Part shown: one piece after another, positions 53,646-60,784 of the stretch
How positions within the stretch are numbered: position 1 is the first letter of the stretch
How the letters are laid out: every line of letters starts with the position of its first letter
Source of the DNA: Thiospirochaeta perfilievii
Lineage (GTDB): Bacteria; Spirochaetota; Spirochaetia; DSM-2461
Assembly: GCF_008329945.1 (NCBI RefSeq)
Contig: NZ_CP035807.1
Location: forward strand, 3,286,001-3,350,000
DNA length: 64,000 nucleotides
Direction of reading: 5' to 3'
Notes under the pieces: model-generated
Told to the model about the DNA's origin: nothing
What the model saw: the letters and a program-made list of their open reading frames with translations, nothing else
Database searches by the model: none
Translations under genes and position numbers: made by a program

Positions 53646-53663
53646 ATGGCAATCACTTGCCGT
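53646..53663. promoter_or_regulatory. Candidate NrpR operator at its own promoter
   Basis: ATGGCA-ATCACT-TGCCGT: a 6-bp inverted repeat with one mismatch and a 6-bp spacer, ending 4 bp before the -35 box TTGACA. The same palindrome occurs at the gltB promoter (54796-54813). Confidence 0.6.
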
Positions 53664-53667
53664 TTAA

Positions 53668-53696
53668 TTGACATAGATGTAACTTTTCTCTAATAT
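53668..53696 (+). promoter_or_regulatory. Promoter of the NrpR-type gene, probably leaderless
   Basis: TTGACA (perfect), 17 bp and TAATAT, which ends 7 nt before the ATG; no ribosome site lies between. Transcription should start at or next to the start codon. Confidence 0.65.
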
Positions 53697-53703
53697 ACAA
53701 AAT

Positions 53704-54702
53704 ATGTCAGATAGTGTAGAAGATAAAAGGCTTAAAATTTTAAATATCTTAAGAGATAATAATGAAGCTTTAAGTAGTCAAAAAATAACTAATCATCTCA
53801 ATGAACAGGGTATACAGATCTCTGAAAGAACTGTTCGTTTCCACCTTTTAGCAATGGATAAAAAAGGTTTTACCCAGTATATAGGAAGAAAAGGGCGTCT
53901 ATTAACAGCTCTTGGAGAACAAGAACTTACCAAGGTTAAGGCCTATGAAAAGGTTGGTTTTTTATCATCAAAAATCGATGAATTCTCCTATAATATGAAT
54001 TTCGATTTAGAAAAAAAAGAGGGATCAGTTCTTGTAAATGTAACACTAATTAGTCAGGATGATTTAAAAAACTCTATTGAACTTCTATATACAGCCTTTG
54101 AACACGGATTTGTTATGGGTGAACTTCTTACAATATTTTTTCCTGAGGACAGTGATGATAAAATTGAAATTCCAAAGGGTTTTGTTGGTATTGGTTCTGT
54201 CTGTTCAATTACATTAAACGGAATACTCTTGTCTAAGGGAATACCGGTCCACTCTATATTTGGAGGACTCCTTGAAATAGAGGATAGAACTGCAAAAAGA
54301 TTTGTAGAGATTATACAGTATAACGGAACATCATTAGACCCATTAGAGATATTTATATCTAGTGGTTTAACAGATCATACTAGGTTATGTAGTAGTGGGA
54401 GTGGGGTTGTTGGAGCAAGTTTTAGGGATGTTCCTGCATCTAGTAGGGAAAAAGTAATTCAAATATTTGAGAGATGTCAAGAGATTGGGTTAGGCAGCTT
54501 TCTTGAGATTGGTTACCCGGGTTCTCCCTTATTAGAAATTCCTGTTTCAGAGGGGAGAGTTGGTTTTATTGTTACAGGGGGATTAAACGCTGTTGGACTT
54601 TTAGCGGAATCTGGAATAAAACTATATTCAAAGACCCTATCGGGTTACGTTGACTTTAAAAAATTAGTTAATTATAGAGAGCTTAAAAAGTATTTTAAAT
54701 AA
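53704..54702 (+). CDS. nrpR: NrpR-type transcriptional regulator of nitrogen metabolism
   Basis: A 332-residue protein with an N-terminal winged helix (RLKILNILRDNNEALSSQKI, ISERTVRFHLLAMDKKGFTQ) and one NRD/DUF128 ligand domain (about 75-332; GFVGIGSVCSITLNGILLSK, GIPVHSIFGGLLEIED, GRVGFIVTGGLNAVGLLAES). In methanogenic archaea NrpR represses nitrogen-assimilation genes and is released by 2-oxoglutarate. Here it lies directly upstream of gltB-gltD with a shared palindrome at both promoters, so it probably controls them. It has a single NRD where some archaeal forms have two. No Shine-Dalgarno sequence is present. Confidence 0.85.
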   Translation: MSDSVEDKRLKILNILRDNNEALSSQKITNHLNEQGIQISERTVRFHLLAMDKKGFTQYIGRKGRLLTALGEQELTKVKAYEKVGFLSSKIDEFSYNMNFDLEKKEGSVLVNVTLISQDDLKNSIELLYTAFEHGFVMGELLTIFFPEDSDDKIEIPKGFVGIGSVCSITLNGILLSKGIPVHSIFGGLLEIEDRTAKRFVEIIQYNGTSLDPLEIFISSGLTDHTRLCSSGSGVVGASFRDVPASSREKVIQIFERCQEIGLGSFLEIGYPGSPLLEIPVSEGRVGFIVTGGLNAVGLLAESGIKLYSKTLSGYVDFKKLVNYRELKKYFK

Positions 54703-54763
54703 TTTGATTTTAGCATTTAGTTCTTGCGTTAGATGGGATAATAAATATTCATGATTGACAATA

Positions 54764-54793
54764 TTGACATAGGTAGTCATTTTAAGATAGACT
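54764..54793 (+). promoter_or_regulatory. Possible promoter of gltBD
   Basis: TTGACA, 18 bp and TAGACT; a second TTGACA starts at 54755. The -10 is only 4 of 6, as expected for a regulated promoter. The palindrome at 54796-54813 lies at the predicted transcription start. Confidence 0.4.
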
Positions 54794-54795
54794 TT

Positions 54796-54813
54796 ATGGC
54801 ATAAAGTTGCCAT
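54796..54813. promoter_or_regulatory. Candidate NrpR operator at the gltB promoter
   Basis: ATGGCA-TAAAGT-TGCCAT is a perfect 6-bp inverted repeat with 6-bp spacer between the putative -10 box and the gltB ribosome site. Binding here would block transcription start. It matches the site at nrpR and the GGNA-N6-TNCC layout of archaeal NrpR operators. Confidence 0.65.
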
Positions 54814-54833: not shown

Positions 54834-57800
54834 ATGATAAAAAAACAGGGTTTGTATGATCCAGCATTTGAGCATGATGCGTGTGGTGTTGGTTTTATAG
54901 CTAAAATTGACGGAGAAAGATCCCATAGTATAGTACAGGATGGAGTTCAAATTCTCTGTAATTTAGAGCATCGAGGAGCAGTTGGTGGTGATATGAAAAC
55001 TGGTGATGGAGCCGGTATGTTATTGCAAATGCCCCATAAATTTTTTAATAAAGTTACCGATTTTACACTACCTGCTGAGGGTAGTTATGGAGCTGGTATG
55101 CTTTTTTTACCTATTGATAGTAAAAGAGCAGATGAAGCAGTAAAATTAACTGAAAAAATATTAAAAGAAGAGAGTGTTACTATTCTAGGTTGGAGGGATG
55201 TTCCTGTGAACCCTGACTGTCTTGGAGAACAGGCTCTATCGGTAATGCCGTCTTTTAAACAACTCTTTGTTTCCATTGGAGATTTAAAAGGTGAAGAGTT
55301 AGAAAGAAAACTATATATAACTAGAAAAGTTCTTGAAAACAAAGCTAATGATAACGGTTTTCCCCAGGAAGAGTACTACTTTCCATCATTCTCATCTAGA
55401 ACCTTTATATATAAGGGTATGTTTGTATCTGCACAGTTTGAAACATTTTATCCAGATTTAACAGATCCAGATTTTGAATCGGCAATAGCTTTAGTTCATC
55501 AGCGATATAGTACTAATACTATGCCAACATGGCCTTTAGCCCAACCTTTTAGGTATATAGCCCACAATGGGGAGATAAATACATTAAGAAGAAATGTAAA
55601 TAATATGAAGGCTAGGGAAGCTACATTAGACTCTCCGCTATTTGGTGAAGATCTTAAAAGAATGTATCCTATAGCTAGTTCTAAAGGGTCTGACTCTGCT
55701 GCATTTGATAACGTATATGAACTACTAAATCAGGGTGGAAGATCACTAGAGCACTCGGTTATGATGATGATACCAGAAGCGTTTGGTAGTAAGTATCATA
55801 TATCTGAGGATAAGAGATCTTTCTACGAGTACCACTCTGCAGTTATGGAGCCATGGGATGGCCCTGCCGCTATGGCATTTACAGATGGAACAAAAATAGG
55901 AGCAACACTGGATCGATCTGGTTTAAGACCAGCTAGGTATACAATAACTAGAGACGGTAAAATGATTTTAGGTTCTGAGACAGGTATAATTGATGTAGAG
56001 CCAAAAAATGTTCTATCTAAGGGAAGACTTGCTCCTGGTGGTATGATTGTTGTAGATACTTCATTAAATAGGGTCTTAACTGATAGGGAAGTAAAATCAG
56101 TTGTATCAAGAAGAAAACCATATAGAAGATGGTTGGAGCAAAATGGTATACATTTAAAGGGGCTTTTAGGCACAAGTGGTAAGATTCATGTAGATTCGGA
56201 GACTTTAGCCCTTAGGCTTAGAACATTTGGATATACTATGGAAGATATTCAGACAATTGTTGCCCAAATGGCTGTTAACTCCCAGGAGCCTCTAGGTTCA
56301 ATGGGTAATGACTCCTCTTTAGCTGTACTATCAGAGAGACCTCAACTACTTTTTAACTACTTTAGACAGTTGTTTGCCCAGGTTACAAATCCACCAATTG
56401 ATCCATATAGAGAGAATTTAGTTATGTCTCTAATGAGTTTTGTTGGACAGGAAAGAAACCTACTAGATGAGACTCCAGAACACTGTAAGCAGTTAAAATT
56501 AAAACATCCTATATTAACTAATGATGATATAAGAAGATTACGAAATACACAAAATGAGGATTTAAATACAGCTACAGTCTCTATGTTATTTAGAATAGAT
56601 GAAAAGAAGGGTGACTTAGAGAGAGCTATTGACGATCTTTGTAAAAATGTTGAAAAAGAGGTTGATAAAGGGAATACCTTTATTATCTTAAGTGATATTG
56701 GGACTACAGAACATTTAGCACCAATACCGTCACTCTTAGCAACATCAGCTGTTCATCACTACCTTGTAAGAGTTGGGAAAAGGCATTTAGCAGGATTAAT
56801 TATTGAGTCTGGAGAGGTAAGAGAAGTTCATCATTTTGCGACTCTTATTGGATTTGGTGCATCTGCTGTAAATCCACACCTAGTTTTTGAATCCTTTAAT
56901 GACCTTAAAGAGAGGGGGTACATCCCTGAAGATATCTCAATTTCAACAGCAGTTGATAACTATGTAAATGCTGTTAAAAAAGGTATTTTAAAGGTTATGT
57001 CTAAAATGGGTATCTCAACTTTAAGAAGTTATAGAGGAGCACAGATCTATGAAGCTGTTGGACTCTCCACAGAACTTATTGAAAAATACTTTACTAATAC
57101 TCCATCTAAAATAAGTGGTATTGGTTTAGAATCTATTGAGAGGGATGTAATAGAGAGACATACTAAGGCATACTCTAAAAATGATACAAATACAGGGCGT
57201 CTCCACTCTGGTGGTAAGTACTCCTATAGAAAATTTCAGGATAAACACCTATTTACACCAACAGCGGTTATTAATTTACAAAAGGCTGTAAGGGAAGGAA
57301 ACTACGATACTTTTAAGAAGTATTCTAATGAAGTAAACAATGTTAGTGAAAACCTATGTACTCTACGTGGACTATTAAAGTTTAAAGAGAGTAAGGCAAT
57401 AGATATAAATGAAGTTGAGCCTGCTAGTGAAATTGTAAAGAGATTTGTCTCCTCAGCAATGAGTTTTGGTTCTATATCAAAAGAGGCCCATGAGTGTATG
57501 GCGATTGCTATGAACAGAATTGGAGCGATGAGTAACTCTGGAGAGGGTGGAGAAGATGAAAATCGATATACCCCCTTAGCTAATGGAGATTCTGCAAAAA
57601 GTAAGGTTAAACAGGTTGCCTCTGGTAGATTTGGAGTTACAAGCCACTACTTGGTTAATGCAGAGGAGCTTCAGATAAAGATGGCTCAAGGGGCAAAACC
57701 TGGTGAGGGTGGACAGCTTCCTGGGCATAAGGTTAATGAGGTTATTGCTAGAGTTAGGCACTCAACTCCTGGTGTTATGTTAATTTCACCTCCTCCACAC

Positions 57801-59360
57801 CATGATATCTACTCTATAGAGGACTTATCACAACTTATATTTGACTTAAAGAACTCTAATCCTGATGCTAGGGTATCGGTTAAGTTGGTTTCTGAAGTTG
57901 GAGTAGGAACAGTTGCAGCTGGAGTAGCTAAGGGTAAGGCAGATATGGTTCTTATCTCAGGTTCTGATGGTGGAACTGGAGCATCCCCTCTTTCAAGTAT
58001 TAAATATGCAGGTTCATTTTGGGAGTTAGGATTAGCAGAGACTCAGCAAACACTTGTTTTAAATAAATTAAGAGACAAGATTAGGGTACAGGTTGATGGA
58101 CAGATAAAAACAGGTCGGGATGTTATTATAGGTGCAATGTTAGGTGCTGAAGAGTTTGGTTTTGGAACAACTACCTTAGTGACAATGGGGTGTATAATTA
58201 TGCGTAAATGTCATACTAATAGTTGTCCTGTAGGTATTGCTACCCAGTGTGAAACCCTAAGAAAAAGATTTAATGGTAAACCAGAGAATATAATTAACTT
58301 TATGATGTTTGTTGCGGAAGAAGTTAGGGAGATTATGGCTGAATTAGGGTTTAAAAAGTTTGAAGATTTAGTAGGTCGAGTTGACTTATTAGAGGTTAAT
58401 CAAGCTGTTAAACACTTTAAAACAGAAGGCTTAGACTTTTCTCCAATTCTTCATAAGCCTATAGTTCCAGAGGGGTCTGCTATAAGATGTACTTCTAAGC
58501 AGGAGCATGATTTCTCCCTATCCCTCGATGATGGTTTAATAAAACAGGCTAAGGACGCCCTTGAAAATGGTACTCCAGTCGTTATTAACCAGAAGATAAG
58601 AAACTGTAATAGAACAGTTGGTACAACATTAAGTTCAGAAGTAGCTAAAAGATATGGTGGTAAAGGGTTACCTGATGACACAATTAAAGTAAAACTAGAT
58701 GGTGTTGGTGGTCAATCTTTAGGAGCCTTCCTATCTAAGGGTATTACTTTTGAAATAAAGGGTGAAACAAATGACTTCCTAGGTAAAGGATTATCTGGTG
58801 GAAAAATTGTTCTTTATCCCCATGATGAGATCTCTTTTACAACAAGAAGAAATATTATTGCTGGTAATGTTGCTCTATTTGGTGCTACAACAGGAGAAGC
58901 TTATATAAACGGAATGGCAGGTGAAAGATTTGCTGTTAGAAACAGTGGAGCCTTAGCTGTAGTTGAGGGTGTTGGGGATCATGGGTGTGAGTACATGACC
59001 GGGGGGACTGTAATTGTTCTTGGTCAAACCGGGGTTAATTTTGCAGCCGGTATGTCTGGTGGTGTTGCTTATATCTTTGATGAAAATCAACTTTTTGATA
59101 CACACTGTAACCTTGAGATGGTAGATATAGAGTCTGTTGTTGATAGTAAAGATCAGAACTTTTTAAGAGAGACTATTTTAAAACATATTGAGTATACAAA
59201 TAGTACTGTTGCTAAGGATTTAATAAAGAACTGGGAAGAGTCTTTACCACTATTTGTTAAAGTGATGCCTTTAGATTATAGAAGAGCATTAGAGAAGATT
59301 AAGGCTGCAGAGATGCAAGAATCAGATAATTCAACCCTTACAGAGGAGGTGTACAACTAA
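54834..59360 (+). CDS. gltB: Glutamate synthase large subunit
   Basis: A 1508-residue flavoenzyme that makes two glutamate from glutamine plus 2-oxoglutarate. A 16-residue propeptide precedes Cys17 of HDACGVGF, the glutaminase nucleophile after processing. The synthase half has VKLVSEVGVGTVAAGVAKGK, LISGSDGGTGASPLSSIKYA and the 3Fe-4S motif CIIMRKCHTNSCPVG. The C-terminal GXGXG beta-helix (GGKIVLYPHDE, GATTGEAYINGMAGERFAVR) completes the family order. Its stop overlaps the gltD start. The promoter carries a putative NrpR operator. Confidence 0.97.
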   Translation: MIKKQGLYDPAFEHDACGVGFIAKIDGERSHSIVQDGVQILCNLEHRGAVGGDMKTGDGAGMLLQMPHKFFNKVTDFTLPAEGSYGAGMLFLPIDSKRADEAVKLTEKILKEESVTILGWRDVPVNPDCLGEQALSVMPSFKQLFVSIGDLKGEELERKLYITRKVLENKANDNGFPQEEYYFPSFSSRTFIYKGMFVSAQFETFYPDLTDPDFESAIALVHQRYSTNTMPTWPLAQPFRYIAHNGEINTLRRNVNNMKAREATLDSPLFGEDLKRMYPIASSKGSDSAAFDNVYELLNQGGRSLEHSVMMMIPEAFGSKYHISEDKRSFYEYHSAVMEPWDGPAAMAFTDGTKIGATLDRSGLRPARYTITRDGKMILGSETGIIDVEPKNVLSKGRLAPGGMIVVDTSLNRVLTDREVKSVVSRRKPYRRWLEQNGIHLKGLLGTSGKIHVDSETLALRLRTFGYTMEDIQTIVAQMAVNSQEPLGSMGNDSSLAVLSERPQLLFNYFRQLFAQVTNPPIDPYRENLVMSLMSFVGQERNLLDETPEHCKQLKLKHPILTNDDIRRLRNTQNEDLNTATVSMLFRIDEKKGDLERAIDDLCKNVEKEVDKGNTFIILSDIGTTEHLAPIPSLLATSAVHHYLVRVGKRHLAGLIIESGEVREVHHFATLIGFGASAVNPHLVFESFNDLKERGYIPEDISISTAVDNYVNAVKKGILKVMSKMGISTLRSYRGAQIYEAVGLSTELIEKYFTNTPSKISGIGLESIERDVIERHTKAYSKNDTNTGRLHSGGKYSYRKFQDKHLFTPTAVINLQKAVREGNYDTFKKYSNEVNNVSENLCTLRGLLKFKESKAIDINEVEPASEIVKRFVSSAMSFGSISKEAHECMAIAMNRIGAMSNSGEGGEDENRYTPLANGDSAKSKVKQVASGRFGVTSHYLVNAEELQIKMAQGAKPGEGGQLPGHKVNEVIARVRHSTPGVMLISPPPHHDIYSIEDLSQLIFDLKNSNPDARVSVKLVSEVGVGTVAAGVAKGKADMVLISGSDGGTGASPLSSIKYAGSFWELGLAETQQTLVLNKLRDKIRVQVDGQIKTGRDVIIGAMLGAEEFGFGTTTLVTMGCIIMRKCHTNSCPVGIATQCETLRKRFNGKPENIINFMMFVAEEVREIMAELGFKKFEDLVGRVDLLEVNQAVKHFKTEGLDFSPILHKPIVPEGSAIRCTSKQEHDFSLSLDDGLIKQAKDALENGTPVVINQKIRNCNRTVGTTLSSEVAKRYGGKGLPDDTIKVKLDGVGGQSLGAFLSKGITFEIKGETNDFLGKGLSGGKIVLYPHDEISFTTRRNIIAGNVALFGATTGEAYINGMAGERFAVRNSGALAVVEGVGDHGCEYMTGGTVIVLGQTGVNFAAGMSGGVAYIFDENQLFDTHCNLEMVDIESVVDSKDQNFLRETILKHIEYTNSTVAKDLIKNWEESLPLFVKVMPLDYRRALEKIKAAEMQESDNSTLTEEVYN

Positions 59361-60784
59361 TGACAAATGTATTTGGTTTTTTAGAAAAAGAGAGAAAGAA
59401 TCCTCCATATAGGGATGTAAAGGATAGAGTTAAAGATTATAAAGAGGTTGCTACTCAGTTAAGTAAAGATGAACTTAAAGAGCAGGCTGAACGGTGTATG
59501 AATTGTGGAATCCCATTTTGTCACTCCTACGGTTGTCCTATTACTAACTTAATTCCTGAGTGGAATGATGCGGTATATAACGGTCAGTGGAAAGAGGCTT
59601 ATGAGAGATTAGAGATTACTAATAACTTCCCGGAATTTACAGGGCGAATATGTCCTGCACCCTGTGAAACAGCTTGTACTTTAGCGATTAATACTGACTC
59701 TGTAACCATTAGAGAGTTAGAGTTAAATATAATTGAGGACGCCTTTGCAAATGGACTTGTTGTTCCCCATCCGCCTAAGGTTTTAACTGGTAAAATGGTT
59801 GCAATAATTGGTGGTGGACCTGCAGGGTTAGCTGCTGCTCAACAGCTTAGACGAAGTGGTCATGAAGTTACAATTTTTGAAAAATCTACTAAAGTAGGTG
59901 GACTTTTAAGGTTTGGAATACCAGATTTTAAACTTGAAAAATCTGTAATAGATAGAAGATTGCAAATTTTAAAAGCTGAGGGCATAGAGTTTGAAAATGG
60001 CGTAGAGATTGGTAAGGATATCTCTGTATCATATCTTAGAAATAAATATGATGCTATTTTAGTAACAGCTGGTGCAGGTCAACCAAGAAACCTTCCTGTA
60101 GAGGGTAGGGATCTAGAAGGCGTTCACTTTGCAATGGATTTTTTAAGCCAATCAAATAAATTTGTATCTGGTGAATTAGATAAACTTCTAATTGATGCAA
60201 AGGATAAAAATGTTCTGGTTATAGGTGGTGGAGATACAGGTTCTGACTGTGTTGGAACATCTATTAGACAGGGTGCTAAGAACGTTTACCAAATTGAAAT
60301 TATGCCTAAACCTATGGAGTGGAATAAACCCCACAATCCAGATTGGCCAGATTGGCCAAGAATCCTAAGAACTTCCTCTTCCCACTTAGAAGGGTGTGAT
60401 AGAAGCTGGAATGTGACTACTGATAAGTTCAGTGGGGAGAATGGTAGGTTAAATAAGGCTCATCTCTCAAATATTGAGTGGAAAGCATCAGAGAGTGGTG
60501 GAAGACCTGATATGGTTAAACTTGATAGCTATGAATTAGATGTTGACCTTGTATTTTTAGCAATGGGTTTTGTTCATACCGAGCATGGAGTTTTTACAGA
60601 CCAACTATGTTCTGAAGGGGTTAAGCTTGATGAGAGGGGTAATATTGCAGTTACTGACTTTAAAGCCACTGATGACGGTATATTCGCTGCTGGGGATGCA
60701 ATTACTGGTGCATCTCTGGTAGTAAGGGCAATAGGTAGTGGAAGAGAGGCTGCATATGAAGTACATCAATATTTAACAAAATAG
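59360..60784 (+). CDS. gltD: Glutamate synthase small subunit
   Basis: A 474-residue NAD(P)H-dependent partner that passes electrons to GltB. N-terminal 4Fe-4S cysteines are in AERCMNCGIPFCHSYGCPI and RICPAPCETACTL; the FAD fold is VAIIGGGPAGLAAAQQLRRS and the NAD(P) fold VLVIGGGDTGSDCVG, and the end reads GIFAAGDAITGASLVVRAIG. The first base overlaps the last base of the gltB stop, giving strong coupling. A terminator follows directly. Confidence 0.97.
   Translation: MTNVFGFLEKERKNPPYRDVKDRVKDYKEVATQLSKDELKEQAERCMNCGIPFCHSYGCPITNLIPEWNDAVYNGQWKEAYERLEITNNFPEFTGRICPAPCETACTLAINTDSVTIRELELNIIEDAFANGLVVPHPPKVLTGKMVAIIGGGPAGLAAAQQLRRSGHEVTIFEKSTKVGGLLRFGIPDFKLEKSVIDRRLQILKAEGIEFENGVEIGKDISVSYLRNKYDAILVTAGAGQPRNLPVEGRDLEGVHFAMDFLSQSNKFVSGELDKLLIDAKDKNVLVIGGGDTGSDCVGTSIRQGAKNVYQIEIMPKPMEWNKPHNPDWPDWPRILRTSSSHLEGCDRSWNVTTDKFSGENGRLNKAHLSNIEWKASESGGRPDMVKLDSYELDVDLVFLAMGFVHTEHGVFTDQLCSEGVKLDERGNIAVTDFKATDDGIFAAGDAITGASLVVRAIGSGREAAYEVHQYLTK

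Follow-up and report, generated by a model that had tools for sequence, protein, structure and literature searches.

NrpR has been studied so far in methane-making archaea. In Methanococcus maripaludis, its operator is GGAA-N6-TTCC, with sites at nif, glnK-amtB, glnA, and the genes for molybdate and alanine transport (PMC2723118), while in Methanosarcina mazei the operator is GGTA-N6-TACC (PMC3177094), with glnK1-amtB1 as a target (PMC10714827). Both are short palindromes with a 6-bp spacer, as stated in a preliminary description of the locus studied here. Archaeal NrpR binds 2-oxoglutarate and then leaves its operator (PMC11957540). NrpR homologues have been mentioned in certain Bacteria (PMC2723118); nevertheless, we found no paper giving a bacterial NrpR operator or target, and priority is uncertain, as subscription journals and regulon databases lay outside the search.

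The preliminary description had proposed that a spirochaete locus carries an archaeal-style circuit in which an NrpR-type protein controls itself and glutamate synthase through a shared palindrome. As described below, the palindrome adjoining nrpR is very probably the switch by which NrpR would control glutamate-making genes.

The nrpR-gltBD locus and its two palindromes

The features of the locus, which lies in a 64-kb stretch of DNA (the window), are collected in Table 1. The 332-aa product of nrpR belongs to the NrpR family, as both domains and the solved NrpR-domain fold are present, in agreement with the identity first suggested for it. A PF08461 winged helix spans residues 11 to 75 (E 5.6e-16; 58.7 bits, cut-off 21.4), and a single PF01995 NRD ligand domain spans residues 84 to 321 (E 4.6e-78; 262.2 bits, cut-off 25). 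The product matches the structure of MJ0159 (3nek) in sequence (E 3.4e-24) and by profile (E 8e-39), and its AlphaFold model (pLDDT 84.3) superposes on 3nek with a TMt of 0.89, an E value of 1e-18, and 28% identity. When PF01995 was searched against 14 control genomes, matches were observed only in the methanogens M. jannaschii and M. acetivorans. A scan of the product against NCBIfam matched no model. We also observed that, in the fold search with the NrpR model, UPF0317 proteins ranked next after 3nek (2pif, E 5.8e-6), with a poor superposition.

Table 1. Coordinates of genes, predicted promoter elements, and candidate operators within the window.
Feature	Position	Strand	Basis or remark
nrpR-promoter candidate operator, ATGGCAATCACTTGCCGT	53646..53663	.	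GGCA-N6-TGCC; -35 box 4 bp further on
nrpR -35 box TTGACA (predicted)	53668..53673	+	sequence; best promoter-like pair
nrpR -10 box TAATAT (predicted)	53691..53696	+	sequence; 17-bp spacer from -35; ATG 7 nt later
nrpR, 332-aa NrpR-type regulator	53704..54702	+	PF08461 + PF01995; MJ0159 sequence and fold match
gltB -35 box TTGACA (predicted)	54764..54769	+	sequence; kept in G015 and G016
gltB -10 box TAGACT (predicted)	54788..54793	+	sequence; TAGACT/TAAACT in G015/G016
gltBD-promoter candidate operator, ATGGCATAAAGTTGCCAT	54796..54813	.	perfect 6-bp arms, GGCA-N6-TGCC
gltB, glutamate synthase large subunit	54834..59360	+	NF008730, 1767.6 bits, cut-off 1047
gltD, glutamate synthase small subunit	59360..60784	+	TIGR01317 over cut-off

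The start of gltD overlaps the stop of gltB, and both genes form one operon. Its predicted promoter has an 18-bp spacer between the -35 and -10 boxes (17 bp in the relatives G015 and G016). The palindrome at this promoter follows the predicted -10 box at a distance of 2 bp, and 20 nt separate it from the ATG; owing to this position, it covers the expected transcription start. The same placement is found within the genus, and a like layout is visible in groups g6 and g3 of the family. Because the nrpR ATG follows its predicted -10 box so closely, the nrpR mRNA is probably leaderless. Among loci with a good promoter match, most have a predicted nrpR -10 box whose end is 5 to 9 nt from the start codon, and a Shine-Dalgarno sequence is usually lacking; nrpR mRNAs thus look leaderless in several phyla (L010, L020, L039, L085, L086, L090, and others; window positions 53691 to 53704).

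Both palindromes were found where the preliminary description had placed them, 4 bp before the -35 box of nrpR and, as a perfect ATGGCA-N6-TGCCAT, at the start of gltB. Its further claim that the window holds no other GGCA-N6-TGCC at a promoter also proved correct, with exactly 2 copies in the 64 kb against 0.31 expected; this count alone is only mildly unusual, since 5 of 100 shuffles also gave at least 2. A genome-wide scan, as suggested in the preliminary description, showed no enrichment of the motif: across the whole 3.7-Mb genome, the 14-bp core occurs at 8 places and its reversed control at 9, and the core carries no evidential weight on its own. None of the remaining 6 copies is at a promoter, 5 being inside genes and 1 in a long hairpin behind a gene. 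This hairpin (GATGGGCAAACGCTTGCCCATC; L003, approximately 1497 to 1518; G000:C1:1542571) lies between the binding-protein and permease genes of a sugar-type ABC transporter and, despite the GGCA-N6-TGCC inside it, resembles a stem for RNA processing or attenuation. With an extended consensus whose flanks were learned from relatives, RYGGCAA-N4-TTGCCRY, only the nrpR and gltB sites were recovered in the genome at 0 to 1 mismatch; the other 17 places all carry 2 mismatches, and the reversed control also gave 19 places. An Rfam scan of the region yielded no match. The significance of the palindrome rests on its position and on its conservation in relatives.

Conservation of the palindrome within the family and across phyla

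The GTDB family was represented by 26 genomes, most of the relatives being draft metagenome assemblies; nrpR is present in 18 of them and gltB in 23. Wherever the two genes occur together (17 genomes), an exact GGCA-N6-TGCC precedes gltB, between -31 and -181 relative to its start codon. Among the nrpR-less genomes, the gltB site is absent in 5 of 6 (G011 to G014, which belong to g5, plus G017). The hypergeometric probability of such a split (17/17 versus 1/6) is 1.8e-4, with the absences perhaps representing only two independent events, since g5 is one clade. The sole exception among the nrpR-less genomes is G015, a 71% complete genome of the same genus, which retains an intact gltB operator alongside a degraded palindrome at the nrpR promoter and only a short decayed remnant of nrpR. 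At this locus (L172; G015:C22), the flanks and first codons of nrpR are left, with approximately 290 bp of unrelated sequence in the gene's place. The discrepancy could reflect a recent loss of nrpR, a copy in the missing part of the genome, or another reader of the site.

The palindrome of nrpR itself is less widespread, and the alignment of upstream regions upheld the preliminary description at gltB and only in part of the family at nrpR. This site is present in g1, and most g6 genomes hold an exact N6 copy at the corresponding position, where G016 has a one-mismatch form; it is absent in g2, g3, and g4, and half or more of the nrpR genes of the family are without it. Autoregulation would therefore not be universal. 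We also observed in a g6 genome a second nrpR copy, 43% identical to the window protein (L027; G024:C359), accompanied by a pair of N6 sites spaced by 22 bp and a single N4 site, which resembles the arrangement of Desulfobacterota; this copy may be a transfer or a contamination.

Of the 393 Spirochaetota genomes sampled, 12 gave a PF01995 match above the cut-off. A composite pattern of the operator and the gltB start was found in 3 of the 393, all among the 12 with nrpR (2e-5). Ten nrpR neighbourhoods of Spirochaetota outside the family were then inspected, and 7 of them have an exact N6 site beside a glutamate gene, namely, gdhA (L260, L265, and L266), gltB (L261 and L263), or an FMN-type glutamate synthase gene (L262 and L267). 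One more (L268) has N6 and N4 sites near nrpR and none of these three genes as a neighbour, and in the neighbourhoods of L264 and L269 no N6 site was found. In L261 and L263, a nifA-like gene is oriented divergently from nrpR-gltB and is followed by a transporter-sized gene and a gene for a 113-aa predicted PII-like protein, an arrangement suggestive of a compact nitrogen cluster.

The family alignment, run against 84,980 species genomes, recovered 80 nrpR loci, labelled as Desulfobacterota, Spirochaetota, Hydrogenedentota, relatives of Planctomycetota, and other groups. In the 88 non-redundant 300-bp nrpR upstream regions of the cross-phylum set and the family together, GGCA-Nx-TGCC was found with x = 4 in 42 and with x = 6 in 28, against 0.46 and 0.43, respectively, in dinucleotide shuffles; any other x from 2 to 10 occurred in at most 2 loci. 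Outside the family, the corresponding fractions are 41/68 and 20/68 (shuffles, approximately 0.3). Moreover, in an unbiased count of all 4-bp half-sites with spacers of 0 to 14, GGCA with N6 and N4, together with their one-base shifts, came out on top. These counts point to GGCA as the half-site common to bacterial NrpR across many phyla. The preliminary description had attributed to this protein a change of one half-site base; the difference from archaeal GGAA and GGTA stands, but the change is not peculiar to this protein, given how general GGCA appears to be.

The N4 palindrome with the same half-site (GGCAAWWTTGCC) is thus commoner than the N6 form upstream of bacterial nrpR. Its copies lie at approximately -57 and -190 from nrpR (L034, L038, L042, L052, L058, L065, L069, and others). 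They occur at the promoter of nrpR and also ahead of the target gene, and some of the middle copies are long-armed and may be terminators. The N6 site is the one nearest to the target gene and is often doubled at a distance of 22 bp. It is conceivable, if unlikely, that bacterial NrpR recognizes both spacings: GGCAA-N4-TTGCC, with 6 bp between the GGCA cores, where the gene for glutamate synthase or dehydrogenase starts, and GGCAA-WW-TTGCC, with 4 bp between them, upstream of that gene and at the nrpR promoter. A switch of register, perhaps brought about by 2-oxoglutarate, would then convert repression of the target into activation.

Predicted extent of the regulon

Fifty target proteins were scanned for domains; they had been picked for lying close to an N6 site, with up to one mismatch accepted, and not by function. 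Twenty-six are Glu_synthase and 16 ELFV dehydrogenase (GDH) proteins, besides 3 that are NuoE-like and 1 glutamine synthetase (glnA). In Desulfobacterota-like genomes, which are rich in G+C, N6 matches beyond the nrpR locus are mostly intragenic and were left out of the counts. Together with the half-site counts, these data would define the operator and targets of bacterial NrpR for many phyla as GGCA with a spacer of 6, at glutamate synthase and glutamate dehydrogenase genes.

In the genome of the window, the predicted operator targets are gltBD and nrpR only. No operator was found at its amtB or glnA loci, nor upstream of amtB or glnA in the retrieved loci of the family. The extension to glnA, amtB, and glnK envisaged in the preliminary description was thus not borne out, and we do not class the circuit as an archaeal-type NrpR regulon, given that glnA and amtB are without an operator.

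Searching the 26 family genomes for the perfect 18-bp form gave 33 places, 17 of them at gltB, against 8 for the reversed pattern; g6 genomes are noisier, with up to 3 reversed-control matches in a single genome. Apart from gltB and nrpR, perfect operators were also observed upstream of genes for branched-chain-type (livJ-type) amino acid binding proteins (L249, L252, and L255), a polar amino acid binding protein (L247), a protein of the D-glutamate cyclase family (PF07286, which we take to be the UPF0317 family; L248), and an SNF symporter (L254). In two g6 spirochaetes only, G018 and G020, a perfect N6 operator precedes the gene for a nifA-like sigma-54 activator by approximately 30 bp (L253, positions 1570 to 1587, and L251, positions 1513 to 1530, respectively), and the L251 product exceeds the TIGR01817 cut-off; this suggests that NrpR stands above a nifA-like activator in some spirochaetes. 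In the nrpR-less genomes G012 and G017, all matches to the perfect form are inside genes.

Proposed mechanism and comparison with known systems

By analogy with archaeal NrpR, we infer, with a probability of roughly 80%, that a bacterial NrpR dimer binds the palindrome, represses gltBD, and is released by 2-oxoglutarate. The dimer would recognize YGGCAA-N4-TTGCCR, with the core GGCA-N6-TGCC. On the gltBD operator it would occlude RNA polymerase, because this operator comes immediately after the -10 box and spans the transcription start. When nitrogen is short, 2-oxoglutarate, the carbon substrate of glutamate synthase, would build up and bind the NRD domain, and NrpR would leave the operator; gltBD would consequently be made when its substrate is present, as a substrate-induced operon. 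NrpR probably also regulates its own gene; the site there closely precedes the -35 box, a position compatible with autorepression as well as with activation. Of the circuit first proposed, the palindrome at gltB, which is conserved and tracks nrpR, and the N6 spacer are retained, while the wider set of targets and the protein-specific half-site are not.

The position of the nrpR site also bears on an opposite sign of control. NrpR might bind the palindrome as an activator, or activate nrpR and repress gltB, with 2-oxoglutarate changing the outcome. The nrpR site, here and in g6, has its centre approximately 50 bp ahead of the expected start and precedes the -35 box, and the N4 sites outside the family lie at the same place, both of which fit activation. 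However, the gltB site directly follows the -10 box in g1, g6, and g3, which is the position of a repressor, and archaeal NrpR is a repressor (PMC2723118, PMC11957540). We consider activation quite improbable.

It is less probable still, and in our view very doubtful, that the palindrome is read by a different regulator, co-inherited with nrpR and the genes for glutamate synthesis. Such a regulator would account for the gltB site that G015 retains with no detectable nrpR, and the binding of NrpR to the site is itself a prediction. Nevertheless, the site follows nrpR across phyla, next to gltB, gdhA, or the FMN-type glutamate synthase gene and among varied neighbours, no alternative regulator gene was seen to be constantly present, and the site shares its geometry with the operators of archaeal NrpR.

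An RNA hairpin in the gltB leader, instead of a DNA operator, is highly improbable: the gltB copy should fall in or near the 5' leader, but the nrpR copy lies upstream of its promoter and hence outside the nrpR mRNA, and arms of 4 to 6 bp around a 6-nt loop are weak and had no counterpart in Rfam. Finally, a chance pair of unrelated short palindromes, to which the unenriched core and the only mildly rare pair of window copies would point, is already refuted by conservation of the site, along with its spacer specificity and its co-occurrence with nrpR, and its likelihood is negligible.

If repression by NrpR and its release by 2-oxoglutarate hold, a 2-oxoglutarate-sensing repressor known from methanogens would regulate the step from ammonium to glutamate in anaerobic bacteria, as a third solution beside NtrC/PII and GltC/TnrA-type control. 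This would offer a role for a protein that has no NCBIfam name, and GGAA, GGTA, and GGCA would form a specificity series within one protein family, with a third base at one position. NrpR is found in this spirochaete and in many other bacteria, and its very probable operator makes a testable regulatory circuit of what began as a hunch from a single window.

Compared with the known systems, the protein described here has one NRD domain, whereas M. maripaludis NrpR carries two. The two share the NRD domain family, a palindrome with a 6-bp spacer, a GG-x-A half-site, and targets in nitrogen assimilation (PMC2723118). They differ in the half-site, which is GGCA here, in the promoter, which is of the bacterial sigma-70 type, and in the target, which is gltBD instead of nif, glnA, and glnK-amtB. 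With NrpRI/NrpRII of M. mazei, the similarity lies in spacer and symmetry (PMC3177094); the half-site has C here for T, a single protein is present, and there is no site at amtB, in contrast to the glnK1-amtB1 target (PMC10714827). MJ0159, the nitrogen repressor-like protein of Methanocaldococcus jannaschii, has the same NRD fold, its solved chain (3nek) comprising the NRD part only. In Bacillus subtilis, gltAB is regulated by GltC, a LysR-type regulator. There, as proposed here, glutamate synthase is controlled by the nitrogen and carbon state, but the protein family is unrelated and the site is different.
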